From Syntrophomonas sp. (lineage in GTDB: Bacteria; Bacillota; Syntrophomonadia; Syntrophomonadales; Syntrophomonadaceae): a stretch of 64,000 nucleotides of DNA. The position numbers were made by a program, and so were the translations under genes. The stretch covers positions 124,001-188,000 of the forward strand of contig JAENZE010000002.1 of NCBI GenBank assembly GCA_016841425.1. Reading direction: 5' to 3'. The notes beneath the pieces are model-generated. The model ran no database searches. It had not been told where the DNA came from and saw only the letters and a list, made by a program, of their open reading frames with translations. Below, piece by piece: positions 8,602-50,913 of this stretch. How positions within the stretch are numbered: position 1 is the first letter of the stretch; every line of letters starts with the position of its first letter.

Positions 8602-8800
8602 CCTATTGCCACCAAGTGGGCAAGATGACAGGCCTATGACAGGAGGGAAGATCAAGGCATGAAAAAAGCCCGCGATTGAGGCGTACCTGGGTACGTTAAT
8701 TGAGCGGACTTCCTTATCCATCGTGAGCTAAGCGAACAATAAATTGTGGTCCTGTGGGCTTTTTGAAATAACGCAGATATTCTCTTCTGTCATAGGCCTG
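8602..8800 (+). repeat. Structured interspersed repeat, copy 1
   Basis: A sequence of about 170-200 bases occurs here and again at 27675-27918. Its ends form an inverted repeat (CAGGCCTATGACAG at 8629-8642 pairs with 8787-8800). An internal hairpin AAGCCCGC...GCGGACTT has a GTAC/GTAC inner stem. The most conserved block is GCGAACAATAAATTGTGG followed by TCCTGTGGGCT (8734-8760). It is bracketed by two identical 20-base hairpins. It may be a miniature mobile element or a structured RNA; I do not recognise a named family. Confidence 0.7.
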
Positions 8801-8820
8801 GGGCGGCTTTAAGGCCGCCC
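8801..8820 (+). terminator. GC-rich hairpin, right copy
   Basis: Identical in all 20 bases to 8582-8601, followed by TTTATCTTAAAGGGG. It lies 23 bases before the ATPase start. Duplication on both sides of the repeat suggests either a target duplication on insertion or two regulatory hairpins. Partial termination here could set the ratio of binding protein to the other transporter subunits. Confidence 0.55.
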
Positions 8821-27639: not shown

Positions 27640-27674
27640 CAATAACCCCTGTCAAAGCAGGGAGTAGGTTATTG
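27640..27674 (+). terminator. Hairpin after asp23, left of repeat copy 2
   Basis: CAATAACC pairs with GGTTATTG, with inner CCTG/CAGG pairs. The core AACCCCTGTCA resembles the hairpin at 27919-27942 on the other side of the repeat. Confidence 0.5.
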
Positions 27675-27918
27675 TCAAAGTTGGCAAGAAGCAGGCCGAT
27701 GACAGAAGTGAAGATCAAGGCATGAGAAAAGCCCGCGATTGAGGCGTACTTGAGTACATTGATTGAGCGGGCTTCCTTATCCATCGTGAGCTAAGCGAAC
27801 AATAAATTGTGGTCCTGTGGGCTTTTTGAAATAACGAAGATATTCGTTTCCCTGTTCTTCCTGAGCCTTGCGCGAACTTCAAACTGTAATCCTGTAAAGG
27901 GCTTGTGTCATCGGCCTG
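27675..27918 (+). repeat. Structured interspersed repeat, copy 2 (longer form)
   Basis: Closely matches 8602-8800 over the hairpin and the GCGAAC...TCCTGTGGGCT block. The ends form a 13-base inverted repeat (CAGGCCGATGACA at 27692 with 27906-27918). Relative to copy 1 the terminal stem has a paired change (T-A to G-C). About 60 extra bases contain a second, diverged copy of the GAGC...GCGAAC...TCCTGT...GGGCTT unit (27863-27904 beside 27787-27826). It separates asp23 from amaP. Confidence 0.7.
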
Positions 27919-38429: not shown

Positions 38430-39062
38430 ATATGAAGGGCCCTTAAGGCGAAACCAAATTGTCCTGTGGGCTCCTAGCTAAGACAAAGCATAAAACTCGC
38501 CAGTGGGTAAGAAATAAAAACTCAGCTTTCGCAAATGGCAACAAGTTTGGTCGTGCGAGCATTATACTTTGTCCCGCCGTCACCCTCCACCCTGCGGGTA
38601 CTACTGATGTTCCCGCTGGTCACTATTAAGGTTGCGGCCGGTCTTATTTTAGGCGATGGAGGAATACATTCTTCGTGTGTGATATCTGGCTAACCAATTG
38701 ATTTGCTCGCTCTGATCCGCCTTACCCTCCTTGCTAAGACAAAGCATAAAACTCGCCAGTGGGTAAGTGCGAAAGTTAATACTATAATAACTTCTTGGGG
38801 ATGAAAGCTTAAGGTTAGCGCAGGGGGATAAAGGCGATTCGTTTAGTGGGACATAACTTGTTTTACCCATCAATCTAAGCATCACTAGCTAACTTATATA
38901 GAGAAAGTAAGACCGGACCCAAGCGGTCTTAAGCATTCATCCGTACAATTTTCATCTGCACTTGTGTCATGCAGACATGTTTGGTTGAGTTATTAGTCTA
39001 TCTAAATAGCCGGAGCTGTGGGGAGATATAGGTGAAAACTTATCAGAGTGGGAAGGGATCAT
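38430..39062 (+). repeat. Gene-free repeat-rich region between argR and recN
   Basis: No convincing gene. It opens with a third, short copy of the block found in the repeats at 8.7 and 27.8 kb (GGCGAAACCAAATTG then TCCTGTGGGCT, 38447-38471). A 35-base direct repeat occurs at 38477-38511 and 38733-38767. A diverged inverted partner of its core lies at about 38556-38578 (GCGAGCATTATACTTTGTCC). CCGGTCTTA at 38638-38646 pairs with TAAGACCGG at 38908-38916, and AAGACCG/CGGTCTT forms a local hairpin at 38909-38930. It could be a decayed mobile element or a structured RNA. Confidence 0.6.
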
Positions 39063-40748
39063 ATGCTGCAGGAAATCTATATTAATAACTTTGTCCTTAT
39101 AGATGAATTGCGTCTTGAACTGCTGCCCGGTCTCAATGTCTTGACCGGAGAAACGGGAGCAGGCAAATCAATTATTATCGATGCGCTAGGTTTAGTTATA
39201 GGTGATCGAATCACTAACGATTTTATCAAGGATAGTCAATATAAAGCGGTAGTCGAAGCAGTATTTGACGTGAGCTGTAATCACGAGGCTCGTAACTTCC
39301 TTCAGGAAAACGGCCTGCTGGAGGAGGATGACCTGCTTATTTTAAGCCGTGAAATAACTCCCGGCGGAAGGAATACCACCAGGATTAATGGTAGAAGCGT
39401 TAATGTTTCGGTCTTAAGAAAACTAGCGGTTAATCTGCTGGACATGCATCTTCAGCATGATCAGCTGAGCATACTAAGGCCAGAGATGTATCTCAAATAT
39501 GTTGATAGTTTCTCGCCCGGAAGTGAAGAGATATTACCGTTAGTACAGAGTAAACATAATGAAATAAGAAACAAAAAGAAGGATATAGAGCAGCTGGAAT
39601 TAGACGAGTTGAATAGAAGGCAAAAGACTGATTTCTTAAGCTATCAGATAGATGAAATAGAAAAAGCCCGCCTGCATCCTGGAGAAGAAGAAGAATTAAC
39701 CAGCCTGGTACATCGCATTCGAAACTCCCGCAAACTGCTGGAAGGCTCCGAAAGATTGCTTAATCTGTTATATGACGGACCCGAAGGACGCAATGCCTAT
39801 GATCTGATATCCATGTCGGTCAATCAATGTGCTGATATGGGTGATGAGCCTATTTTTGTTACCCTGCAGCAGCAGTTGGAAGAGTTCTATTACCTTCTCC
39901 AGGATAAATCGGCAGAAATTTCATCATATCGTGATTCACTTGATTTTGAGCCAGGTTTACAGGAAGAGGTCGAAGAGAGAATATATATTATAAATAAGCT
40001 AAAGAGCAAGTATGGCAACAGTATAGAAGAGATATTAAGTTATCTTGAACAGTCCAGGGAAGAAAAGCTTATGCTGGATAACAGTCAGGAGCGAAAGGAA
40101 ACCCTGCAGCAAGAAACAGAAAAGCTCCTGGAGGAGTATAGTGATTTAGCGGATCGATTAAGCGAGAAGAGGAAACAGGGCGCACTCATTTTAAGGGATA
40201 TAGTCAATAAAGAACTTATAGAACTAAATATGCCTGATATCCAGTTTGAGGTTCTGGTTGAAGCATCTCAAGAAGCAGGCATATTGGGTCAGGATAAGAT
40301 AGAATTCCTTTTTTCTGCTAATCCCGGAGAGGCCATGAGGCCCATCTCACGAATTGCTTCCGGAGGAGAGATTTCTCGCTTTGTTCTGGCTTTAAAAAAG
40401 GCCCTGGCCGAGGTTTACCAGGTTCCAACCTTAATTTTTGACGAAATAGATATCGGGGTGGGGGGCACTTCACTGACATCTATGGCCTTAAAAATTAGGG
40501 AACTTGCCTCCAGCCACCAGGTAGTATTGGTTACTCATTCTCCTCAGGTGGCAAGCTATGCCAGTCAGCACTGTTTGATTGCCAAACAGGTTGCCGATGG
40601 AAAAACTTCGACTGTGGTAAAAACTTTGGGCCAGGAGGAAAAGATTAAGGAAATAGCGAGAATGTTAGGCGGAGATAATTATTCTGAGCTGACCCTGGAA
40701 CATGCCCGAGAAATGTATACCCGGGCACAAACCCACCCTGCTAGTTAA
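39063..40748 (+). CDS. recN: DNA repair protein RecN
   Basis: An SMC-like ATPase of 561 residues acting in double-strand break repair. Walker A is LTGETGAGKSIIIDALG near residue 30, central coiled coils occupy residues 150-360, and the C-terminal part has ASGGEISRFVLALK with Walker B PTLIFDEIDIGVGG. ATG 39063 follows GGGAAGGGA; GTG at 39048 is also in frame. It is the last conserved core gene before the accessory island. Confidence 0.94.
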   Translation: MLQEIYINNFVLIDELRLELLPGLNVLTGETGAGKSIIIDALGLVIGDRITNDFIKDSQYKAVVEAVFDVSCNHEARNFLQENGLLEEDDLLILSREITPGGRNTTRINGRSVNVSVLRKLAVNLLDMHLQHDQLSILRPEMYLKYVDSFSPGSEEILPLVQSKHNEIRNKKKDIEQLELDELNRRQKTDFLSYQIDEIEKARLHPGEEEELTSLVHRIRNSRKLLEGSERLLNLLYDGPEGRNAYDLISMSVNQCADMGDEPIFVTLQQQLEEFYYLLQDKSAEISSYRDSLDFEPGLQEEVEERIYIINKLKSKYGNSIEEILSYLEQSREEKLMLDNSQERKETLQQETEKLLEEYSDLADRLSEKRKQGALILRDIVNKELIELNMPDIQFEVLVEASQEAGILGQDKIEFLFSANPGEAMRPISRIASGGEISRFVLALKKALAEVYQVPTLIFDEIDIGVGGTSLTSMALKIRELASSHQVVLVTHSPQVASYASQHCLIAKQVADGKTSTVVKTLGQEEKIKEIARMLGGDNYSELTLEHAREMYTRAQTHPAS

Positions 40749-40760
40749 GAAAAATAAGAA

Positions 40761-40869
40761 GCAAAGCCTTCCCAGCCATTGATATGCTCCCCTTTGAGTA
40801 GACACCTGAAATAACAAAAATTCAGGACTACGCAAAGGGGAGCATATCAATTATCGGCAGGCTTTTATT
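40761..40869. repeat. Palindromic element A
   Basis: A 17-base perfect inverted repeat (TGATATGCTCCCCTTTG at 40780-40796 with 40833-40849) surrounds an inner CCTGAA/TTCAGG stem. An outer AAAGCCT/AGGCTTT pair follows, then a T-rich tail. A diverged inverse-orientation copy lies at 44156-44240. The ends resemble fused termini of an IS3-type insertion sequence or a MITE. It may also act as the terminator for recN. Confidence 0.55.
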
Positions 40870-40939
40870 TCTACAGATTAACGGAGTTAAGATATGTATC
40901 TCTCCTAGTTTCTGGGTTTCAGGGAGTGACCAAACCTCT

Positions 40940-41311
40940 TTATTTGCCCAGGGATTTTGCTACCTTTAAGATATTTTCCTCACTTAGGCTGGCACTGATA
41001 ATATAGTACCTATCTGGAGTCTGCCATAATAATTTCCTAAGCCCGGTTTTTTCAAAATAAATCAGCGTAGCTTCGTATTCATTAATCTTAACAGTAGAAG
41101 ATTCCGCTTGATTGCTGCGGAAATTATAGGAAAACGAAGTTGGCACATTATTAATTACCAACCTGATGACCCGGAAGAACCTGAAATCAGCAAGAGCATT
41201 GTCCCCCACAGCCAGCAGACCTTGAAGCCACTTATAATCCCTATCTAAATTAGGACTAATTTCCTTTTTTAACATTTTTGCTAAAATGATGGAACTTTTT
41301 GGTCCTCCCAA
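40940..41311 (-). pseudogene. Collapsed DUF4367 anti-sigma gene (remnant of copy 1)
   Basis: The last 60 residues and a short membrane-proximal piece (GLLAVGDNALADFRFF) match the intact gene at 44286-45041 almost exactly. Two deletions explain the rest. One removes the middle domain (equivalent to 44491-44762). The other removes the N-terminus, the start, and the whole sigma gene (equivalent to about 44841-45686), joining the remnant directly to the divergent promoter region. The first 30 codons of the open frame are former non-coding DNA. No functional anti-sigma factor is expected. Confidence 0.85.
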
Positions 41312-41321
41312 TTGTGTATAC
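41291..41321 (+). promoter_or_regulatory. ECF-type promoter, copy 1
   Basis: GGAACTT (41291-41297), 16 bases, then GTGTATACT. The same sequence is preserved in the duplicate at 45754-45786. The GGAAC -35 element is typical of ECF sigma factors. It lies about 33 bases before the secreted-protein start. Confidence 0.6.
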
Positions 41322-41353
41322 TATGAGAGCTTTAATGGGAGGAGGTGAAAATT

Positions 41354-41833
41354 ATGAGAAAAATTTTAGCAGTATTTCTGCTCATCTTAATTATCATGTC
41401 GGTAATGAGTGTACCCGTATTGGCTGTAAGTAAAGATTCAGCACCGACCGCTGCTGTCCATAATACTAGAGCAGAACTTTTATCACAGATAAATCCTGAA
41501 GAGGCTAAGTCCAGAGACTATTTGATTGAGGAATGGTATTCCGAAATCAGGAGTATTGGAAATGGGCAAGTATCACTTTATGGCTGGACCAGGTGCAATA
41601 CGACGTGTGATTCGGTAAGCGTTGAACTGCAACTGCAACGGTGGAACGGTTCAAATTGGTCAACTATTGGCACATATGTGTTTGAAGCATTTAATACCGA
41701 TTATAACTGGGGATTAAGAACCGTTTCAGTGTCTACGGGCAACCATTATCGGGTGAAAAGCTATCATCGGGCCAATTATGGGGCGATTTACGACCAGACT
41801 ACTGCTGTAACAAAGGCGATTTATGTGGACTAA
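41354..41833 (+). CDS. Small secreted protein, DUF6147-like, copy 1
   Basis: The signal peptide (residues 1-24, hydrophobic core LAVFLLILIIMSVMS, cleavage after VLA) is followed by a compact beta-rich domain (GQVSLYGWTRC, SVELQLQRWNGSNWSTIGTY) with two cysteines four residues apart. It resembles the DUF6147 family of exported clostridial proteins; that match is from memory. It is about 92% identical (13 changes in 159) to the protein at 45817-46296. The start at 41354 follows GGGAGGAGG. Its function is unknown. It is transcribed from the ECF-type promoter, divergent from the broken anti-sigma gene. Confidence 0.82.
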   Translation: MRKILAVFLLILIIMSVMSVPVLAVSKDSAPTAAVHNTRAELLSQINPEEAKSRDYLIEEWYSEIRSIGNGQVSLYGWTRCNTTCDSVSVELQLQRWNGSNWSTIGTYVFEAFNTDYNWGLRTVSVSTGNHYRVKSYHRANYGAIYDQTTAVTKAIYVD

Positions 41834-41973
41834 GCTTATTTACAAATAATTTTTAAGACAATAGAGGATCATTAATAGAACTACTAAATGAAACAGGAAA
41901 TGTAACATCAAACTGGTTAGAATAAAGACTATTTCAGATGATTTACTGTTATTATTCCAATGTGATTGTCCAA

Positions 41974-42000
41974 GAACTTTGTGTGACCTAATATGTCTAA
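41974..42000 (+). promoter_or_regulatory. ECF-type promoter before the C39-like peptidase
   Basis: GAACTT (41974-41979), 15 bases, GTCTAA (41995-42000). This closely fits the classical ECF pattern and lies about 30 bases before the peptidase start. Confidence 0.55.
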
Positions 42001-42030
42001 TAATATTGTGCAACAGGAGGAATGAAATAA

Positions 42031-42834
42031 ATGAATAAAATTAGAAAAACTATGTTAATAACCTTAGTTATTTTATTGACAATGTCAGCTAGTAGTTTTG
42101 CCTATGAAAAAGAAGCAGACGAAGTTTATTTAAATAGAGATTTATTGGAAAAGGAAATTTGGAACGAATACATTAAACTTGATGAATTTCAGAAACATTA
42201 TGCAGAAAACCCAAAAGACGCAGAGGCTATGATAGACAGTATAGTTGATACTAAGATGCAAATTCACAGGAACAATTCTATTACTCCACGAGGAGGCCAA
42301 GGTACTATTGCATATATTAATTTTCCTCAATTTAAACAAAAAAACAGTTATTACTGTGGCCCTGCCAGTGCATTGACAGCTATCTATGGAATGGGAGAAG
42401 AAAGTAGTGTTACTGGAAGTACGTATAATGCAAAGCAGGATACATTAGCATATAATATGGGGACAAGTAGTGGTATTGGTACATATGTTTATAGAATGAG
42501 GAATGAATTGAATAACTACTCATCAGAGCAGTATAATTATTATTACGCACCAACCAAAAATGATATGTGGTGGATTATTGGTGGTAGTTTATTATCAGAT
42601 AATGCACCTATTTTACATGCCAATACCCGAGAATTTTCATATTATGAAAATTATAATGTAGAACATTATTTAACTATTGTGTTTCATAATACAGCTATTG
42701 ACGATGATGAGATAGGTTGTATGGCGGTAATGGATAATCATTATAATGATGATTATTATGGAACACATGATATTTCGTTAGATGAAGCTTATGAATCTAT
42801 CAGAGGAAGATATTTAATTGGGGTATCACTATAA
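42031..42834 (+). CDS. Secreted C39-like (papain-fold) cysteine peptidase
   Basis: The signal peptide (residues 1-24, ending SSFA) is followed by a charged pro-like region (25-85) and a C39-like peptidase domain. Catalytic Cys is in SYYCGPASALTAIYG (about residue 109), His in VEHYLTIVF (about 213) and an Asp/Asn in VMDNHYNDD (about 233). It is 267 residues, AT-rich and rich in Asn and Tyr, unlike the flanking core genes. C39 enzymes cut leader peptides or surface proteins. The substrate is unknown; the neighbouring secreted protein is one candidate. Confidence 0.8.
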   Translation: MNKIRKTMLITLVILLTMSASSFAYEKEADEVYLNRDLLEKEIWNEYIKLDEFQKHYAENPKDAEAMIDSIVDTKMQIHRNNSITPRGGQGTIAYINFPQFKQKNSYYCGPASALTAIYGMGEESSVTGSTYNAKQDTLAYNMGTSSGIGTYVYRMRNELNNYSSEQYNYYYAPTKNDMWWIIGGSLLSDNAPILHANTREFSYYENYNVEHYLTIVFHNTAIDDDEIGCMAVMDNHYNDDYYGTHDISLDEAYESIRGRYLIGVSL

Positions 42835-42851
42835 AATTTATTTAGATTTTA

Positions 42852-42887
42852 TTCAGGATGCGGGAAGAAATCTTCCTGTATCCTGAA
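42852..42887 (+). promoter_or_regulatory. Stable hairpin just before the lipoprotein gene
   Basis: TTCAGGAT...ATCCTGAA with inner GGAAGA/TCTTCC and an AA loop gives about 14 paired bases. It ends 5 bases before AGGAGG of the next gene and has no T tract, so mRNA stabilisation or control of translation is more likely than simple termination. Confidence 0.55.
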
Positions 42888-42904
42888 TGAGTAGGAGGTT
42901 TGCC

Positions 42905-44089
42905 TTGAATAGGATAATAAATAGTATTATTATCATGTTATTTCTTGTTTCTTTTAATTTAATTATATTTGGTTGTAGCACTGAATCTCGCCAGGTTGAT
43001 AATATTTATAAAAAAGAAAACATTTCAAATCAGGCCGAATCCTTTAACCATATAATTTCTCGAAATGATGATATTTTCGAAGTAAATTATTTTCCATTAT
43101 CTGTTCCTGAAATAGAAGGAGTAAGAGAGGAAATAGGTGGATGTACTGTATTTGGCAATAAAATATATTACATAGTTAATTTTCCTGAAGACCAGTCCAC
43201 TATTGCCAAATCATCTAGAGTGTACGAATATGATACTGTCACAGCTACAAACAAATTTATTTATGAAATAAAAGATCCAGAAGTTACTTGGATCAATGAA
43301 TTAAGAGCAGATGAGAAAAAATTGTATTGGACGACACTGGGAATAAACAAATGTACTTTGGAAAGTTTTGACCTAAAAACACAAGAAGTGAAAAAAATCC
43401 ACTCGATTTCTTATGAACCAATAAATCGACCTATAGTTTTAGGCGGTAATAGCAGATATCTTGCATGGTATGAATATGATGATGGAACAAATTTATTCAA
43501 GCTTGTGAACTATAATCTAAGTGAAGAAAAAATTTCCTACATTAATAAAGATAGTATGTATTTTTACGGGTTTGCTCGTCCAAGCATAAATAGGGATAAA
43601 GCCCTGATTATAAAAGACGTCAATGATATACTCTCTTTCAATTTAATTAACGTAGAGAACTTTCAGATAGAACATAAGTTTAACTTATCTAAAGAAATAG
43701 AATGTGTTCGGCCTCAAGTTAGTAAAGATTATATAGTATGGAACGATAAACGGGGCGAAAATATATATTTTTATGATTTTAAACTTCATGATGTATCAAG
43801 GATTAGTTTTAGAGAATTATTAGACAAGAGTGTTTTTTCAATGCATCTCTTTGACAATATATTGTATATACATACTACTGCTCACGAGGATATATGGTTT
43901 TTTGATTTAAAAGAAAAAAACTATGGCACTATAACATGGTTAATAGAAAATTCACCCATATCTGGGGATGCAAATTATTCATCGTCAAAAATTTCTTTAG
44001 ATAATCAATACATAAGTTTACTTGACGACTATACTGAACAATATACTAAGCATTATGCGTGCATAATTAAACCTAAGTATGAACAATAA
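42905..44089 (+). CDS. Exported lipoprotein with beta-propeller-like domain
   Basis: The N-terminus has a lipobox (LIIFGC) after a hydrophobic stretch. The remainder, 394 residues in all, shows repeated short beta-rich motifs such as KLYWTTLG, YLAWYEYDDG and IVWNDKRGENIYFYD, suggesting a TolB/WD-like propeller facing outside. TTG at 42905 follows AGGAGG. It is the third gene of cassette 1. It could sense, bind or shield a surface target of the upstream peptidase; this is inference. High Asn/Ile/Lys content marks it as accessory. Confidence 0.7.
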   Translation: MNRIINSIIIMLFLVSFNLIIFGCSTESRQVDNIYKKENISNQAESFNHIISRNDDIFEVNYFPLSVPEIEGVREEIGGCTVFGNKIYYIVNFPEDQSTIAKSSRVYEYDTVTATNKFIYEIKDPEVTWINELRADEKKLYWTTLGINKCTLESFDLKTQEVKKIHSISYEPINRPIVLGGNSRYLAWYEYDDGTNLFKLVNYNLSEEKISYINKDSMYFYGFARPSINRDKALIIKDVNDILSFNLINVENFQIEHKFNLSKEIECVRPQVSKDYIVWNDKRGENIYFYDFKLHDVSRISFRELLDKSVFSMHLFDNILYIHTTAHEDIWFFDLKEKNYGTITWLIENSPISGDANYSSSKISLDNQYISLLDDYTEQYTKHYACIIKPKYEQ

Positions 44090-44155
44090 GTGTTTTAGGA
44101 ATAGACCGCTGTGGGTCTGTCAATAATTTTGTGCTTTGCTCTTTGCCAGTAATAG

Positions 44156-44240
44156 GTTTGATATGCCCCCCTTCGTATAGTCCTGAATTTTTGTTATTTC
44201 AGGGTCTAATCAAAGGGAGTTTATCGTTAATCTGCAGGTT
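44156..44240. repeat. Palindromic element B (diverged inverse copy of element A)
   Basis: TTTGATATGCCCCCC...CAAAGGGAGTTTATCG flank the core GTCCTGAATTTTTGTTATTT, which is the exact reverse complement of the element A core. The stems are more degenerate than in A. Elements A and B thus lie in opposite orientation around cassette 1, as would the ends of a composite element. Confidence 0.5.
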
Positions 44241-44285
44241 TTTCTTTTTTGTATCTTGACCCAGTTAGTTTATGATACTAGAGCT

Positions 44286-45041
44286 TTATATTCCCAGGGA
44301 TTTTGCCACCTTTAAGATATCTTCCTCACTTAGGCTGGCACTGATAATATAGTACCTATCTGGAGTCTGCCATAATAATTTCCTAAGCCCGGTTTTTTCA
44401 AAATAAATCAGCGTAGCTTCGTATTCATTAATCTTAACAGTAGAAGATTCCGCTTCATTGCTTCGGAAATTATAGGAAAACGAAGTTGGCTGGTCTATTA
44501 GGTTTTCATCAATTATCAGTTCATTTCCTATTGAATCTAGATAGTGGAGTTCGGCCGGTGACAGACTATCTATTCCTCTTATATAAATCCCGTCCAAAGT
44601 ATAAGCAGCTGGAATATAACCAGGAAGGACTATTTCATAATCCAGCAGTTGCCGGGCTTCTTCAGGAGAATATAAATCTTTATGATTAGCATTTTGTTCA
44701 ATATTAGTACTATCTATAACAGGTATACTGTTATTGGTTTGAGTGACTCCGGATATACTCACCACATTATTAATTACTGACTTGATGGCCCGGAAGAACC
44801 TGAAATCAGCAAGAGCATTGTCGCCCACAGCCAGCAGACCGGTCAACAAAACCATGAGTATAGCTGCTGCAGCAGCAAGTTTTTTGAATATAGAAATATT
44901 TGTTTTATTATTGATACTCTCAATTTCTCTTGAAATATCTGACCATACTTGATCTTTGTCAGGAGGTATTATACTGTTAGCCGTCTCTTTTAAGCCTTGG
45001 GAAAGCTCACGATCAAAATCATCAAAATAAGTTTTCATCAA
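44286..45041 (-). CDS. Anti-sigma factor, DUF4367 type
   Basis: A 251-residue bitopic protein. The N-terminal cytoplasmic part (1-52) would bind the sigma factor, one membrane helix lies at about 53-72 (AAAAAILMVLLTGLLAVG), and the extracellular C-terminal DUF4367 domain contains LPGYIPAAYTLDGIYIRG and YYIISASLSEEDILKVAKSL. The start overlaps the sigma gene stop by 4 bases (ATGA), the standard sigma/anti-sigma coupling. It presumably holds the sigma factor at the membrane until an envelope signal arrives. It is the intact counterpart of the remnant at 40940-41311. Confidence 0.88.
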   Translation of the reverse strand: MMKTYFDDFDRELSQGLKETANSIIPPDKDQVWSDISREIESINNKTNISIFKKLAAAAAILMVLLTGLLAVGDNALADFRFFRAIKSVINNVVSISGVTQTNNSIPVIDSTNIEQNANHKDLYSPEEARQLLDYEIVLPGYIPAAYTLDGIYIRGIDSLSPAELHYLDSIGNELIIDENLIDQPTSFSYNFRSNEAESSTVKINEYEATLIYFEKTGLRKLLWQTPDRYYIISASLSEEDILKVAKSLGI

Positions 45042-45550
45042 ACCACCCCACTTTCATTTTGGGACTCTAGAATAGCCTTTAATATCATCTTGGCCCTACT
45101 TATCCTGCTCTTGACCGTTCCTAACGGAAGATCCAACATATCTGCTATCTCTTGATCAGTTAAGTCTAAATAGTATTTAAACACCAGTACTTCTCTATAT
45201 TTTACCTTAATTGTATTAAGGGCTTGCTTCAGGTCAATTTCTTTATCCTTTTGTTCTATGATATTTCCCGAGTAAGCTGGTTTGTTTTCAAGTTCATTAA
45301 TATCGGCTATAGGAATGGAATTAGCATGCTTCTTTATCGTATTCTTGGCCTGGTTCGAGGCTACTATAGTCAGCCATGAATACATATTATCCAAATCCTT
45401 CAAATCGTCCAGTTGTTTATAGGCAATAATAAAAGCCTCCTGGGTGGCGTCTCGGGCGATAAACTCATTTTGAATAATCAGATAAGTTGTTCTGTACACC
45501 TTTTCATAATGGGTATTAAAAAGTATTTTAAAAAACTCTATTTTGTTCAT
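45038..45550 (-). CDS. ECF-family RNA polymerase sigma factor
   Basis: A 170-residue two-domain sigma-70 protein. Region 2 contains ARDATQEAFIIAYKQLDDL and region 4 contains LTDQEIADMLDLPLGTVKSR, a helix-turn-helix. The start at 45550 follows AGAGGGG; the longer frame up to 45694 adds an unrelated hydrophobic stretch. It is divergent from the small secreted protein and co-transcribed with its DUF4367 anti-sigma factor. It likely recognises the GGAACTT promoters at 41291 and 45754. Confidence 0.92.
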   Translation of the reverse strand: MNKIEFFKILFNTHYEKVYRTTYLIIQNEFIARDATQEAFIIAYKQLDDLKDLDNMYSWLTIVASNQAKNTIKKHANSIPIADINELENKPAYSGNIIEQKDKEIDLKQALNTIKVKYREVLVFKYYLDLTDQEIADMLDLPLGTVKSRISRAKMILKAILESQNESGVV

Positions 45551-45753
45551 AATTTTATGCCCCTCTAAAACAAATCCAGAAAAGTTATATTGTACCGACA
45601 TGGAAAAAAATGCAAACGGCTTAGCTAATACTATACCAGAAAACAATAAATAAAAAATCATACTATAGCTATATTTCAAGAGCCTCGAAGCCACCTCTAA
45701 CCCCTCTCTAAATTAGGACTAATTTCCTTTTTTAACATTTTTGCAAAAAAGAT

Positions 45754-45787
45754 GGAACTTTTTGGTCCTCCCAATTGTGTATACTAT
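45754..45787 (+). promoter_or_regulatory. ECF-type promoter, copy 2
   Basis: GGAACTT, 16 bases, GTGTATACT, the same arrangement as at 41291. It lies about 30 bases before the copy 2 secreted protein and divergent from the sigma gene. Confidence 0.6.
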
Positions 45788-45816
45788 GAGATCTTTAATG
45801 GGAGGAGGTGAAAACT

Positions 45817-46296
45817 ATGAGAAATATTTTAGCAGTATTTCTTCTCATCTTAATTATTATGTCGGTAATGAGTGTACCTGTATTGGCTGCAAGTAAAGAT
45901 TCAGAACAGACCGCTGCTGCCCATAATACAAGAGCAGAACTTTTATCACAGATAAATCCTGAAGAAGCTGAATCCAGCGATTATTTGATTGAGGAATGGT
46001 ATTCCGAAATCAGGAGCATTGGAAATGGACAAGTCTCCCTTTATGGCTGGACCAGGTGCAATAAAACGTGTGATTCGGTAAGTGTTGAACTGCAGCTGCA
46101 ACGGTGGAACGGTTCAAATTGGTCAACTATTGGCACATATATCTTTGAAGCATTTAATACCGATTATAACTGGGGATTAAGAACTGTTTCAGTGTCTACA
46201 GGCAATCATTATCGGGTGAAAAGCTATCATCGGGCTGAAGACGGTTCGATTTATGATCAGACAACTGCTGTTACAGAGGCGATTTATGTTGATTAG
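45817..46296 (+). CDS. Small secreted protein, DUF6147-like, copy 2
   Basis: A paralogue of the protein at 41354-41833 with the same signal peptide (cleavage after VLA), length and cysteine pair. Most differences lie in the first third after the signal and near the C-terminus (RANYGAI versus RAEDGSI). The start follows GGGAGGAGG. It is the first gene of the intact cassette. Its high identity indicates a recent duplication or gene conversion. Its role is unknown. Confidence 0.82.
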   Translation: MRNILAVFLLILIIMSVMSVPVLAASKDSEQTAAAHNTRAELLSQINPEEAESSDYLIEEWYSEIRSIGNGQVSLYGWTRCNKTCDSVSVELQLQRWNGSNWSTIGTYIFEAFNTDYNWGLRTVSVSTGNHYRVKSYHRAEDGSIYDQTTAVTEAIYVD

Positions 46297-46385
46297 TTTG
46301 TTTGCTTAGTCTTTGGAAAAGCTTGGGCTAAGTTATCATAAAAAGCAAAATATTATATATATACAATTACAAGGAGTGAAATACT

Positions 46386-46919
46386 ATGATAAAAAAGAAG
46401 AAATTATTTGTGACCATTGCTCTTAGCCTCTTAATTATCTTTGCATCAGGCAATAATGTTTTAGCAAACCCACTGTCGGTTGACGAATACCAGAGTAATT
46501 TTTCATGTTGGTGTGCTTGCGCTTCTCAAATTTGTGGATATTTTGAAAACTACTCAACCGAACAAGATTATTATAACTGTGAGGGAGCAATATTTTATTA
46601 TTATGGTGGACAAGTGAATGGAAACATAGACTGGATTGAAGGTGGAGTCCAATATATTACGGACATAAATGGTAGTGTACAATACAATCCTTTGAGCTGG
46701 ACTGCAGTTAAATACCAAATAAACAATGATTGCCCAATTGCAGCTGCCCTAGGTGATTATTATGGCTCTCAACATGCAATTACTATTAGAGGTTATAAAA
46801 CAGAAAACTTTATTAATTATTGCTACTATGTAGATCCATATGATGGATTATACCATCTAAGGGCTTATAATTATTTAGTTAATTCATGGGATTGGGCTAA
46901 TTCTGCGTTTTGGGTATAG
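46386..46919 (+). CDS. Secreted papain-like/C39-like cysteine peptidase, small
   Basis: The signal peptide (residues 1-27, ending VLA) is followed by a minimal papain-fold domain of 150 residues. The Cys motif is QSNFSCWCACASQICGYF, His is in QHAITIRGY and Asp in YYVDPYDG. Gln before the Cys supplies the oxyanion-hole residue. It occupies the same place in cassette 2 as the 267-residue peptidase in cassette 1, but the sequences are clearly different. Preceded by AAGGAG. Confidence 0.78.
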   Translation: MIKKKKLFVTIALSLLIIFASGNNVLANPLSVDEYQSNFSCWCACASQICGYFENYSTEQDYYNCEGAIFYYYGGQVNGNIDWIEGGVQYITDINGSVQYNPLSWTAVKYQINNDCPIAAALGDYYGSQHAITIRGYKTENFINYCYYVDPYDGLYHLRAYNYLVNSWDWANSAFWV

Positions 46920-46935
46920 GAGGGAGATGAATATA

Positions 46936-47679
46936 ATGGAAAAAAAATTGGTTTTATTAATAACAATACTAGTAGTAGGCTTGGTAACGATAAGAGTACT
47001 GCCATCCAGTGCAGAACAAATTGTAAACCAGGAGTTTTTACAGAATAATGAACGAGAAGTGGTGGAAAGTGCAATAAAATCAGGAATGATATTTATAAAC
47101 CAGGAGTTCCTAGAGAATCCCGACTGGAATGTTTCGGAGGAGCAGCTTCCCGCTATTGCAGGTACCCCATATAAGGTCTATCCAATAGATCCAGAAAAGT
47201 TTAAAAACATGAATGCAGATAGCTGTTTGAGAGATTTTATAAAAGGCAGTTATGAATGGGAATTTCCTATACTGACATCGGAAGGAGAAGTTATTAATGT
47301 TGGTTCAATAGCTTTCTTAAATGGAGCCTGGCAATTTGTCGGTTTAGGATTAACTATACCCCAAAGCGGAGTTGAATTAAGTTCTAAACCTGATCAAATA
47401 ATTGAGTTGTTGGAAAAGGAAGATTTAGTAGTGAATTTCACTGATTTTAAGCATATAAGATGGGGACTTCCCCCAATGGATTTATTGGTAGTTACAGCCA
47501 ACTCGCAAGAATATGTTGTTCCAATATATTATCAGCAAAAAGAAAACCATGAAGATGGCCGCATTTTTCCGGTGTTGGATAAAATTAAACCGATGCAAGT
47601 GTATAAAGCAAATTATTTTATAAATTTAATAGAAGCAGAACTATCTAATGCTGATCCGCATATGACAATTATTAAATAA
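46936..47679 (+). CDS. Exported protein of unknown function
   Basis: A membrane-anchor or signal segment (about residues 5-22, LVLLITILVVGLVTIRVL) is followed by a 220-residue extracellular domain. The motif VNQEFLQNN and INQEFLENP appears twice near the start. I do not recognise a family. It is the third gene of cassette 2, in the position of the lipoprotein of cassette 1. ATG 46936 lies 10 bases after GGAGGGA; ATG 46927 is too close to it. Confidence 0.7.
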   Translation: MEKKLVLLITILVVGLVTIRVLPSSAEQIVNQEFLQNNEREVVESAIKSGMIFINQEFLENPDWNVSEEQLPAIAGTPYKVYPIDPEKFKNMNADSCLRDFIKGSYEWEFPILTSEGEVINVGSIAFLNGAWQFVGLGLTIPQSGVELSSKPDQIIELLEKEDLVVNFTDFKHIRWGLPPMDLLVVTANSQEYVVPIYYQQKENHEDGRIFPVLDKIKPMQVYKANYFINLIEAELSNADPHMTIIK

Positions 47680-47720
47680 TAGAAATAGTCCATGTCTTCA
47701 AATATCCATAGATATAAAAT

Positions 47721-47770
47721 AGAGCATCTTTCAGAGAGCTTTTTCTGGGGAGATGCTCTGTTATTAAATC
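47721..47770 (+). terminator. Hairpin terminator after cassette 2
   Basis: AGAGCATCT (47721-47729) pairs with AGATGCTCT (47751-47759), followed by GTTATTAAAT. It has a long loop and a weak T tract. Confidence 0.55.
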
Positions 47771-47859
47771 CATATTCTCATACTGGTTGCCGCCGCATTG
47801 TTAGAATTTCGGATAGTTTGATAAGATAAAACAGGGTGCGAACGGAGCAGGAAGATCTT

Positions 47860-47919
47860 TCAAATAACCGGCAAAAATTCGATAAAGAGTTTAAGAAGAA
47901 GTCGATATTACCAAATTAA
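47860..47919 (+). pseudogene. Possible transposase OrfA scrap
   Basis: One frame reads SNNRQKFDKEFKKKSI before a stop, resembling the extreme N-terminus of IS3-family OrfA proteins (xRQKYDKEFK). Only about 20 codons remain and no other transposase part is present. It lies in the island with the IS-end-like palindromes. This is a tentative reading. Confidence 0.3.
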
Positions 47920-47936
47920 AGAAAGGAGTCGAATTT

Positions 47937-48617
47937 ATGCAGCGAAAATTGGTGATTTGTTTTATAGCAGTTTTTTTATTTTCAGGGTGTTCATTAAGCA
48001 CAGAGAATAGTCCGATTACTAATCAACAATCGGATAATATACCAGTCGAAAACAAGTATTATCAACTGGGATATAAATTAAACGAAACATTTATACCTCA
48101 TAACAATAGTATATATCTGGCCACGGTTAATGGTGAACCTATCAATCTGAATGAATGGAATTATATGGTGTATTATATGGAGGGTAAGAAAACTCAGGAA
48201 GATGTATTCCAAGATTTTGTAAAATTGAAAACACAAGTAGCTGCAGCAAAGATAAAAGGTCTTATGCCTACATCTGAAGATATTTCTCAAATAATGAATA
48301 ACACGCTAGCTTCTTTAGCTGATGAAGAATCATCGTTATCTATGTTGCTGCAAGGGGCAGAATTGACTGGTGACGAATACTGCGAAATTATGAAGCCTCA
48401 ATGGATGGATAAACTGGCTGCATCAAACTGGCAGATTTATGTTAACGATTACCTAAACAGCAATGAAGAGATGGATTTGGGTGGCATGGATCAAGCAGAT
48501 TTTTCCAAAGCTTTTGATTCACTGGCTATTGAAGAATTTGGTGATTTGGAAGTAATCATAACTGAAGATGGCATCCAGGCAGGAATGAATAACAGTTGGA
48601 TTAATAATGTGCATTAA
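47937..48617 (+). CDS. Lipoprotein with SurA/PrsA N-terminal-like region
   Basis: The lipobox FSGC (Cys about 18) is followed by an unstructured Asn/Ser-rich linker. ATVNGEPINLNEWNYMVYYMEG resembles the start of SurA_N/PrsA chaperone domains. The rest is helical, and no parvulin catalytic domain is present. At 226 residues it is probably an exported chaperone-like or accessory protein. The start follows AAAGGAG. The match is limited to the VNGEPI segment. Confidence 0.68.
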   Translation: MQRKLVICFIAVFLFSGCSLSTENSPITNQQSDNIPVENKYYQLGYKLNETFIPHNNSIYLATVNGEPINLNEWNYMVYYMEGKKTQEDVFQDFVKLKTQVAAAKIKGLMPTSEDISQIMNNTLASLADEESSLSMLLQGAELTGDEYCEIMKPQWMDKLAASNWQIYVNDYLNSNEEMDLGGMDQADFSKAFDSLAIEEFGDLEVIITEDGIQAGMNNSWINNVH

Positions 48618-48950
48618 CTTATTAGTCATTTTTTATTTTAACCATATTCGGGGGAAAATTAACCCGGGCATGGCTAGTTAAAAACGATTGCTGTGATAGA
48701 AGCAGCTGTTGCTCTTGAAAATATGCTTTGGATGAAATGCGAAGGGGCATTAAGGAGTGAATAATATTTTCAAATTCGTAGTTATGGGATTAGTGATATG
48801 TATCATTTTTGGGGGTGTAAATTAAGCTGTTTATTCCTACCACATCCGGCCACTGTTCTTGGGATGGATTATAATTATTTGCTAAGTCTAATGAAATACC
48901 GTGAACAATAGTTTTGGAAGAAATAATAGTTTATTCAAGGAGGTGTTACT
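48618..48950. other. Intergenic region without recognisable gene
   Basis: AT-rich. A 22-codon frame (48757-48825) starts with a GTG that overlaps its only ribosome-like site and is not credible. No hairpin with a T tract is obvious. Confidence 0.4.
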
Positions 48951-49226
48951 ATGCCTGCTGTTGTTCAGAGAATATTAAACATCATTGTTGCTGGGTTAAG
49001 CTTATATTTTTCAGTTATTATCATAACTTATATTTATGCAAGCTTAACGCCTGGTAAAGGAATGAGCATGGCATTGAAACCTGACTTTACAGAAATAATA
49101 ATTGCTATGATACTACTGGGGTCAACCTTTTACTATTTCAAATCTGGCCAGCAAATAATGAAAATAGTCTCATCTATTGGATGTATATGTATGTTTGTTA
49201 TCTTAATAATGGTGTTTTTTTCATGA
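48951..49226 (+). CDS. Small membrane protein, unknown
   Basis: A 91-residue protein with three predicted membrane helices (about 8-30, 48-62 and 70-90). It has a strong ribosome site (AAGGAGGTG) 7 bases before ATG, which supports it as a real gene. I do not recognise a family. It is one of two consecutive membrane-protein genes in the distal part of the island. Confidence 0.65.
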   Translation: MPAVVQRILNIIVAGLSLYFSVIIITYIYASLTPGKGMSMALKPDFTEIIIAMILLGSTFYYFKSGQQIMKIVSSIGCICMFVILIMVFFS

Positions 49227-49358
49227 GTTGCCGGATAATCAACAATTATGCCCCAAAAACTAATCAACCTGGATATGGTAACGAACTGTTTTCTGCCTGT
49301 CTATAAGAAATGTTTTTTTGTTATATATTGCGGCTTTTAAAAGGGGAGTGGGAATAAA

Positions 49359-50069
49359 ATGGTATTAACCAAAGCGCTGGAGACATATAGTAAATATTTC
49401 CGTATGATCGTATCCATTGTTCTGCCAGTTGGGATAGTAATAGGTTTAATTTTATGTGGAATTAGCAGTTCGGAATACCATAAACTGGATTATCTGCTGA
49501 TATTTAATGTTCCAGGTTGGCTTTTAAGCCCCTTATGGATAGGAGCATTGATATATAGCTTATCAATGCTGGAATCAGGGCAGGAAATCACTTATAAAAA
49601 TACTGTAAAACATGGCTTAAAAACATGGTGGAAACTTGCTGTTATAGGCATGATTGTAATAGGAGGCCAGTCTCTTCTGTTGGTTTTCCCATCATATAAA
49701 TACAACTTATCGTGGTTATATTATTTGATCATTGTATTTATCGTTATGCGATACATATTCATATTGCCCGTTTTAACCCTGGAAAGCAGAGGTGCAATAG
49801 GATCATTGCGGAGATCTGCTGAATTATCAGAAGGCAAACGTTTAAGCATGTTTTTTGAATTTATCGGATTGTGGGTTTTGCTCTATGTAGTAAAGTTTCT
49901 ACTGACCATGCTTCTTGGATGGGCGGGAAATCTTCTCGGAGCAATATGGATAGCACAAGTATACTTTATTATAATTCTAGGTATGATCGGGCCAGTTATA
50001 GCCTCTCTCATTATAGTCTGGATTTACTATTACTACCTTGAGCAAAGCAAATCCACGATTCAACAGTAA
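49359..50069 (+). CDS. Polytopic membrane protein, DUF975/GPDPase-membrane-domain-like
   Basis: A 236-residue protein with about six membrane helices. The repeated pattern with the segment ILPVLTLESRGAIGSLRRSAELSEG resembles proteins in which a Pro-containing helix is followed by a short amphipathic ALxxS/RRS helix (DUF975, YciC or glycerophosphodiesterase membrane domains). Such proteins are of unknown function. The start follows AAGGGGAGTG. Confidence 0.65.
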   Translation: MVLTKALETYSKYFRMIVSIVLPVGIVIGLILCGISSSEYHKLDYLLIFNVPGWLLSPLWIGALIYSLSMLESGQEITYKNTVKHGLKTWWKLAVIGMIVIGGQSLLLVFPSYKYNLSWLYYLIIVFIVMRYIFILPVLTLESRGAIGSLRRSAELSEGKRLSMFFEFIGLWVLLYVVKFLLTMLLGWAGNLLGAIWIAQVYFIIILGMIGPVIASLIIVWIYYYYLEQSKSTIQQ

Positions 50070-50147
50070 AAACCATAGAATAATTACAAATGATGGATCT
50101 AAGTATGGCTAGAATTTCGTCTTAACGAAATAGGGGGTAGAGGAAAA

Positions 50148-50341
50148 ATGAGAAAAATCTTTAATTTTTTTAGTAAATTATGTATATGCCTAGGTCTGCT
50201 AATCGCATTAATTAATATTGGGGGACCCCCTCTGAGTTCAAGTTGGCATCAGCTTGAACAGCTATATTATATGGAGTATTTTTTGGTGGACTATTTTGGG
50301 GCTTAGGTTATATTATTGACAAATTCTTATCTAAAAAATAA
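50148..50341 (+). pseudogene. Frameshifted small membrane protein gene
   Basis: ATG 50148 after AGAGGA opens MRKIFNFFSKLCICLGLLIA...WHQLEQ, with one membrane helix. At about 50265 the coding sense moves to another frame, which continues AILYGVFFGGLFWGLGYI and ends in FLSKK with a stop at 50339-50341. Restoring one base near GAACAG would give an uninterrupted two-helix protein of about 64 residues. The reading is either an inactivated gene or a sequencing error. Confidence 0.6.
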
Positions 50342-50913
50342 TATTTAATGTGACCTTACCCAGGTTTGATAGACACTGAGAACACCCCTATAAAGCATTC
50401 ATTGCCAGTGACAGAGAACATTCTAAATCGGGAGTTGTTTGCTATTTATATCTTTTTGGATTGGGATCACCTTATGGAATTAAAGTCTTAGGATGGATAA
50501 TGAACCGTTTAGAATGTCCGGGTCCTCGTATAGCTGTAAACGTTTTATCAGGGGCTATGATAGTCAGGTCGCTAACTCGTGCCTGACAACAACTTATCAA
50601 TGACTGAAAGTCCTTTATGGGCAGATGATGGTAAAATAATGTCGTTATTAGAAGAACCCGAAGTTGAAGTTACTCCAGAAGGTCGTCACTTGGGAATTGC
50701 TTATTGATGTCACTCTATAAGTTTATTTGGTTTTGCTTAGTTTGAGCATCAGGAATTTATAAGTTTCGGAAAATATAAATGGATTCAGCAATAAGACAGA
50801 TAAAGTCAATAATATTTGATTAAGTATGATCTTATATTGTCTGGTAGTTCCAGTATAGTTTTACTCCTGCAGGGCAAAAATATATTCTAGCAATCTGCAT
50901 GGGAGTGAATCAT
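50342..50913 (+). other. Decayed or non-coding stretch before spoIVB
   Basis: Several short open pieces without starts. One of about 60 codons (around 50397-50586) contains GLGSPYGIKVLGWIMNRLE, and one of 35 codons (about 50601-50707) contains ESPLWADDGKIMSLLEEPE. Neither has a ribosome site, and I do not recognise them. The appearance is of eroded coding sequence. The spoIVB promoter presumably lies in the last 150 bases. Confidence 0.4.

Follow-up and report, generated by a model that had tools for sequence, protein, structure and literature searches.

Among the Bacillota, the sigmaV-RsiV and sigmaP-RsiP systems each pair an extracytoplasmic function (ECF) sigma factor with a membrane anti-sigma factor (PMC4183432, PMC8844934). 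Here we describe a locus of related build in a 64,000-nucleotide stretch of a Syntrophomonas sp. genome (“the window”, G000:C3:124001-188000; G000 is a 3.58 Mb draft in 27 contigs), in which two cassettes, each encoding a small secreted protein, a secreted papain-like peptidase (C39a or C39b) and an exported partner (partA or partB), flank a sigma/anti-sigma gene pair. As in the known systems, an ECF sigma factor would be controlled by a single-pass anti-sigma factor with an outer sensor, and the promoter is bipartite with an AAC-containing -35 element. The locus differs in that the outer domain is DUF4367, that a small secreted protein, predicted to be immunoglobulin (Ig)-like, is the near-constant partner and putative target, and that no lysozyme or beta-lactam sensor gene was seen. 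Taken together, the gene content, linkage and promoters make it likely that the locus is an ECF signalling module with a secreted output of its own, duplicated in the window and co-controlling exported cargo.

The cargo likewise has known relatives. The two peptidases share Cys/His/Asp motifs with the C39_2 (PF13529) and C70/AvrRpt2 (PF12385) families, and C39b passes the C70 cut-off. They differ from these families in that they come from a free-living anaerobe, have Sec-type signal peptides and are accompanied by a fixed exported partner, and nothing ties them to injected effectors. In contrast to bacteriocin-processing C39 exporters, which are fused to ATP-binding cassette (ABC) transporters and associated with double-glycine leaders, they are stand-alone secreted proteins, and neither cassette holds an ABC transporter gene. 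Like Agr-regulated secreted proteases, some C39/partner pairs adjoin AgrB, GHKL kinase and LytTR genes; the window cassettes, however, have ECF-type promoters, and their island contains no Agr genes.

Conserved core of the locus

A preliminary description of the window had placed both cassettes under an ECF sigma factor, and the open reading frames, order, strands and coordinates are as it gave them. The anti-sigma and sigma genes lie on the minus strand between cassettes 1 and 2, and the core elements are the following.

45038..45550, minus strand: ECF sigma factor, 170 residues; Sigma70_r4_2 (PF08281) 49.0 bits, Sigma70_r2 (PF04542) 33.9 bits
44286..45041, minus strand: membrane anti-sigma factor with outer DUF4367 domain; PF14285 38.4 bits against a cut-off of 22.1
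41354..41833, plus strand: small secreted protein, predicted Ig-like, copy 1, 159 residues, DUF6147-related (start ATG 41354; alignment of relatives)
45817..46296, plus strand: small secreted protein, predicted Ig-like, copy 2, 159 residues (start ATG 45817; AlphaFold2 model)
41291..41319, plus strand: ECF-type promoter of cassette 1, GGAACTTTTT-N12-TGTGTAT (strict motif scan)
45754..45782, plus strand: ECF-type promoter of cassette 2, divergent from the sigma gene (strict motif scan)

The sigma protein has the features of an ECF factor, namely regions 2 and 4 above cut-off, no region 3, and a short length. Its coding sequence most likely begins at ATG 45550; the frame stays open as far as 45694, but its first GTG is the less likely start. 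The adjoining protein has one hydrophobic segment (approximately residues 54-80); its assignment as an anti-sigma factor is based on a DUF4367 domain past this single transmembrane segment and on the neighbouring ECF gene, from which sigma binding and inhibition are predicted.

A family-profile search matched the small protein in 63 of 393 good Bacillota genomes. Across these relatives, 48 of 65 assessable loci and 33 of 37 genera have an ECF sigma gene no more than 1.2 kb away from the small gene, compared to a chance expectation of about 2.5% (calculated from 611 sigma-region-4 genes per ~85 Mb in 22 small-gene genomes). The ECF gene is found upstream on the opposite strand (13 loci), downstream on the opposite strand (23), upstream on the same strand (9) and downstream on the same strand (3). 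DUF4367 is present in nearly all linked anti-sigma factors (38 of 39). In the window genome all three DUF4367 domains adjoin the three small genes, and in a set of 22 genomes, picked because they carry such a gene, the same is true of 29 of 61 domains. The constant core is thus the ECF sigma factor, the DUF4367 anti-sigma factor and the 159-residue small protein, not the small protein and a peptidase. The arrangement seen in the window recurs in relatives (G003 and G009) as well as in members of other families (G139, G224, G270 and G368). As to the suggestion that both a C39-like gene and a sigma/anti-sigma pair would recur beside the small family, the sigma/anti-sigma half holds in most genera, whereas about 30 of 37 genera have no C39-like gene nearby.

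Promoters of the small genes

The expected control by an ECF sigma factor is supported by a strict promoter motif that precedes the small genes. The pattern GGAACTTTTT-N12-TGTGTAT matches the window twice (41291 and 45754; 0.08 expected), and the strict motif GGAACYTTTT-N12-YGNNTAT stands directly upstream of both window small genes. In 1.14 Mb of loci this strict motif has 19 sites, against one for a reversed-pattern control, and 15 of the 19 precede a small gene, one of these being a truncated copy (L100). A genome-wide pattern search in G000 yielded credible copies only at the three small genes, as other matches were no more than control. The GGAAC-type promoter is therefore present and specific, and its activation by the sigma factor is predicted.

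Strict sites were also counted in G139 (four), G270 (five) and G201 (five), with none for the control. In G270, from a family distant from that of the window genome, a site stands directly before a C39a-like gene and its lipoprotein gene, divergent from an ECF/anti-sigma pair and with no small gene between (L218), and another precedes a second C39-like/lipoprotein pair (L215). Because this promoter precedes peptidase pairs as well, small proteins and peptidase pairs appear to belong to one sigma regulon, for which the G270 sites are the best evidence. A single promoter model covering all loci drifted towards ribosome-binding sites, and strict motifs were therefore defined clade by clade; in a second clade (L051-L060) the -35 element is GTCAAC, with 13 sites and none for the control, of which six precede small genes and the rest other, mostly exported, genes. 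Sigma autoregulation through the motif was not seen, with 4 of 63 ECF genes exceeding the 95% threshold of other genes.

Interchangeable exported cargo

The peptidases and their partners are encoded directly downstream of the small genes in both cassettes, in the following order.

42031..42834, plus strand: C39a, secreted C39-like cysteine peptidase; QxxxxYCGPAS, HY and D motifs common to homologues
42905..44089, plus strand: partA, exported lipoprotein, probably a beta-propeller; lipobox IFGC and beta-propeller repeat match
46386..46919, plus strand: C39b, secreted papain-like (C70/C39-like) cysteine peptidase; PF12385 24.1 bits against a cut-off of 19
46927..47679, plus strand: partB, exported partner of C39b; AlphaFold2 model with predicted local distance difference test (pLDDT) score of 73.6

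Both peptidases have a signal-peptide-like N-terminus and Cys/His/Asp motifs, as first proposed, and the catalytic residues are conserved across homologues. C39a scores 13.3 bits against C39_2 (PF13529), below the cut-off of 24, which a homologue (L156) passes at 29.6. In C39b, Cys41-Trp42, His130, Pro151 and Gly154 are invariant in five homologues and Asp or Glu precedes Pro151; its profile matches the solved AvrRpt2 core weakly (E 0.0013).

PartA starts at a TTG with a good ribosome-binding site in a frame open from 42887. Partner lipoproteins in L046 and L104 match the PQQ_2 propeller model above cut-off, and a near-identical G139 counterpart of the G270 L215 lipoprotein matches a beta-propeller model. 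A 15-pair hairpin with no T run was observed in the 52-nucleotide C39a-partA gap (42835-42904), just before the partA ribosome-binding site, and possibly sets the ratio of the two proteins. For partB, the AlphaFold2 model had no match in the PDB; a known inhibitor or propeptide was considered and set aside, as no confident fold match was obtained.

Each peptidase type keeps its own companion. A partB homologue stands directly downstream of a C39b-family gene in all eight loci seen, and C39a-like genes are usually paired with a lipoprotein of ~350-500 residues. Such pairs occur without the small protein in L153, L154, L155 and L157-L160. C39 or partB genes are found beside AgrB, GHKL kinase and LytTR regulator genes in G000:C5, G000:C22, G034 and G035, and partB lies near AgrB in G249. 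Because the pairs occur both without the small gene and beside Agr genes, we consider the peptidase pair a unit of its own, captured by several regulators. The Agr-type modules beside C39-like/partner pairs (L155 7911-10722, L040 15679-18490, L158 7343-9649 and L160 1900-4616) encode, upstream of the kinase, a membrane protein of ~165 residues with no assigned family.

Exported-looking genes, called with a crude hydrophobicity rule, make up 100 of 189 genes within 2 kb of a small gene and 36 of 211 beyond 4 kb (p = 3e-14). Cargo families near small genes include papain-like C70/C39 peptidases, Amidase_6, a matrixin-like peptidase, a SpoIID-like domain and beta-propellers. Peptidase/partner pairs are hence one form of interchangeable cargo, in line with the view of the peptidases as interchangeable in the preliminary description.

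Sequence and predicted fold of the small protein

Copies 1 and 2 of the small protein are ~91% identical, so that the near-constancy first reported (~92%) stands. Five residues are invariant in an alignment of 30 relatives (A1): L97, W105, Y135, R136 and H141, in first-row numbering. As to the earlier label “DUF6147-like”, the window copies have no PF19644 (DUF6147) match even at E = 1, and 7 of the 30 aligned relatives match (best 3.6e-8). We therefore name them DUF6147-related rather than members; the likeness lies in both being small secreted proteins, some aligned relatives of which match the model. Neither a function of DUF6147 nor a link to sigma factors was found in the literature searched.

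The AlphaFold2 model of copy 2 has pLDDT above 90 across residues 61-162 and consists of strands only, arranged as a beta-sandwich. In VIA, the solved structures that align best with the small protein are Ig-like domains; its matches include the MspA rim (Z 10.0) and the sensor domain of the anti-sigma factor RsgI4 (Z 8.7 over 93 residues, root-mean-square deviation 2.7), along with many at ~8, a level reached by common Ig-like folds; the best Foldseek match had E 1.9e-3. Since chagasin is Ig-like, as the small protein is predicted to be, a chagasin-type papain inhibitor was considered and rejected, most loci having no peptidase. A chagasin-type chain was also absent among the fold matches listed, an absence which excludes nothing.

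Duplication history of the island

The cassettes lie in a ~10-kb island between genes that we take, from reading their translations, to be recN (39048-40748) on one side and spoIVB (50899) and spo0A (52511) on the other. These genes are neighbours in many Bacillota, and window positions 40850-50800 split recN from spoIVB and spo0A. Two further features belong to the history of the island.

40940..41311, minus strand: remnant of a duplicated DUF4367 anti-sigma gene with two internal deletions; PF14285 32.3 bits
47937..48617, plus strand: lipoprotein of the duplicated block; its counterpart in the C22 copy is 91% identical

Repeat analysis identified 40938-41833 as a shortened copy of 44284-46296, in which the anti-sigma gene is internally deleted, the sigma gene is gone, and the promoter and small gene are intact. 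The blocks of the anti-sigma remnant are 97% identical to 44284-44490 and 94% identical to 44763-44840. Cassette 1 is thus a degenerate duplicate that has lost its sigma gene, and one intact sigma/anti-sigma pair is left in the window (44286-45550, minus strand). The cassettes had been called paralogous, and this is correct for only three elements, namely the small gene, the promoter in front of it and the anti-sigma gene: C39a and C39b belong to two different subfamilies, and partA and partB are unrelated.

A third cassette on contig G000:C22 encodes a sigma factor, an anti-sigma factor, a small protein, the same C39b, the same partB and a following lipoprotein. Parts of 48875-50763 are paralogous to this locus as well, so that much of 40850-50800 is a shared island. 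Over ~1.6 kb (46300-47900; the C22 copy is L040) the C3 and C22 copies show no difference, whereas the sigma, small-gene and lipoprotein blocks that flank this stretch differ at as many as 11 of every 100 bases. Small-protein copy 1 and its C22 counterpart share a stretch of ~400 identical bases, past which the two diverge. Such mosaic identity is what recent gene conversion produces, with an assembly artefact of the draft as a possible alternative.

A partly palindromic intergenic element flanks cassette 1 in inverted orientation (40757-40872 and 44158-44217). It has few partial matches elsewhere in the genome; one of these (C5:56801) adjoins the Agr/C39b locus and another (C22:126286) borders the third cassette. 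The element is possibly a boundary of duplicated islands. Outside the island, a pair of 41-nucleotide repeats lies between argR and recN (38471-38511 and 38727-38767), and dispersed intergenic repeats at approximately 8621-8801 and 27665-27849 both match one place in the relative G001.

Discussion

We propose a mechanism in which, by analogy to ECF biology, an outside signal would act on the DUF4367 domain of the anti-sigma factor, whose destruction or release would give a sigma-loaded RNA polymerase. The sigma factor would then transcribe the small gene, along with exported cargo reached either by read-through or through additional copies of this promoter, and the products would exit via Sec. 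The cargo would be a papain-like peptidase and its exported partner in the window genome, and an amidase, a matrixin-like peptidase or proteins of no known family in other genera. Given that the upstream copy lost its sigma gene and kept its promoter, the intact window sigma factor, or its C22 copy, would drive both cassettes in trans. Envelope stress, suggested as the signal from the ECF type, is a reasonable guess. The small protein is most likely an extracellular binding or shielding protein acting beside the secreted enzymes, neither their substrate nor their inhibitor.

Several observations weigh against such a module. The strict promoter is demonstrated in two groups only, and the single promoter model drifted; the window peptidase genes have no promoter of their own, such that their co-transcription rests on gene order, and the 197-nucleotide gap before C39a is long. 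In addition, of the 65 loci, 17 lack an ECF gene at up to 1.2 kb from the small gene, and in one genus (g109) none was found near it.

Among other explanations, it is possible, although less probable than the ECF module, that C39/partner pairs are secreted effectors, antibacterial or involved in matrix turnover, under social control, with the ECF module as one of several regulators that captured them. The position of C39/partB genes beside Agr genes and the conservation of the pair as a two-gene unit speak for this, while no immunity gene was identified; the proposal is also more compatible with than opposed to the ECF module. We regard it as rather unlikely that the small protein, once secreted, acts on its own anti-sigma factor as a ligand or modulates it by feedback, binding the outer DUF4367 domain and setting how long the switch stays on. 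The sigma/DUF4367 pair is a near-fixed partner in every orientation, the small gene is the most constant promoter target, Ig-like sandwiches often bind proteins, and the RsgI4 sensor is among the better fold matches, albeit at the level of common folds; yet the same linkage would be expected if the small gene were simply a conserved target, and several small genes are far from any sigma gene. More doubtful still is the broader proposal that DUF6147-related proteins are generally secreted ligands of DUF4367 anti-sigma factors, forming a widespread, self-sensing ECF circuit whose main sigma product would report surface or population state and gate enzyme release.

The preliminary description suggested that interchangeable C39-like peptidases have the small protein in common, as their substrate, chaperone or inhibitor. 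Although the small gene is directly upstream of a C39-like gene in G000 (three copies), G003 and G009, and appears to share a regulon with such genes in G270, most small-gene genera have no C39-like gene nearby, C39/partner pairs occur without the small gene, and the fixed companion of each peptidase is its partner gene; we thus consider this role improbable and do not retain it. Finally, the duplication and mosaic identity of the C3 and C22 copies are clear, and the entire pattern could in principle have arisen through recent tandem duplication and gene conversion alone, with no functional linkage. However, recent duplication cannot account for linkage that recurs in 33 genera whose proteins are mostly 20-50% identical, making this the least credible option.

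ECF switches, papain-like peptidases and Agr modules are all of already known kinds. For the near-fixed pairing of a DUF4367 anti-sigma factor with a DUF6147-related protein and a promoter-defined regulon of exported enzymes, a limited literature search found no published description. If the ECF module is correct, two groups of uncharacterised function, DUF4367 anti-sigma domains and the DUF6147-related family, would be partners, and the small-gene promoter would provide a direct readout making both DUF4367 sensing and the role of the small protein testable. The module would also yield sigma/promoter pairs with distinct -35 elements, and may help to catalogue the enzymes secreted by syntrophic anaerobes, which have been poorly studied.

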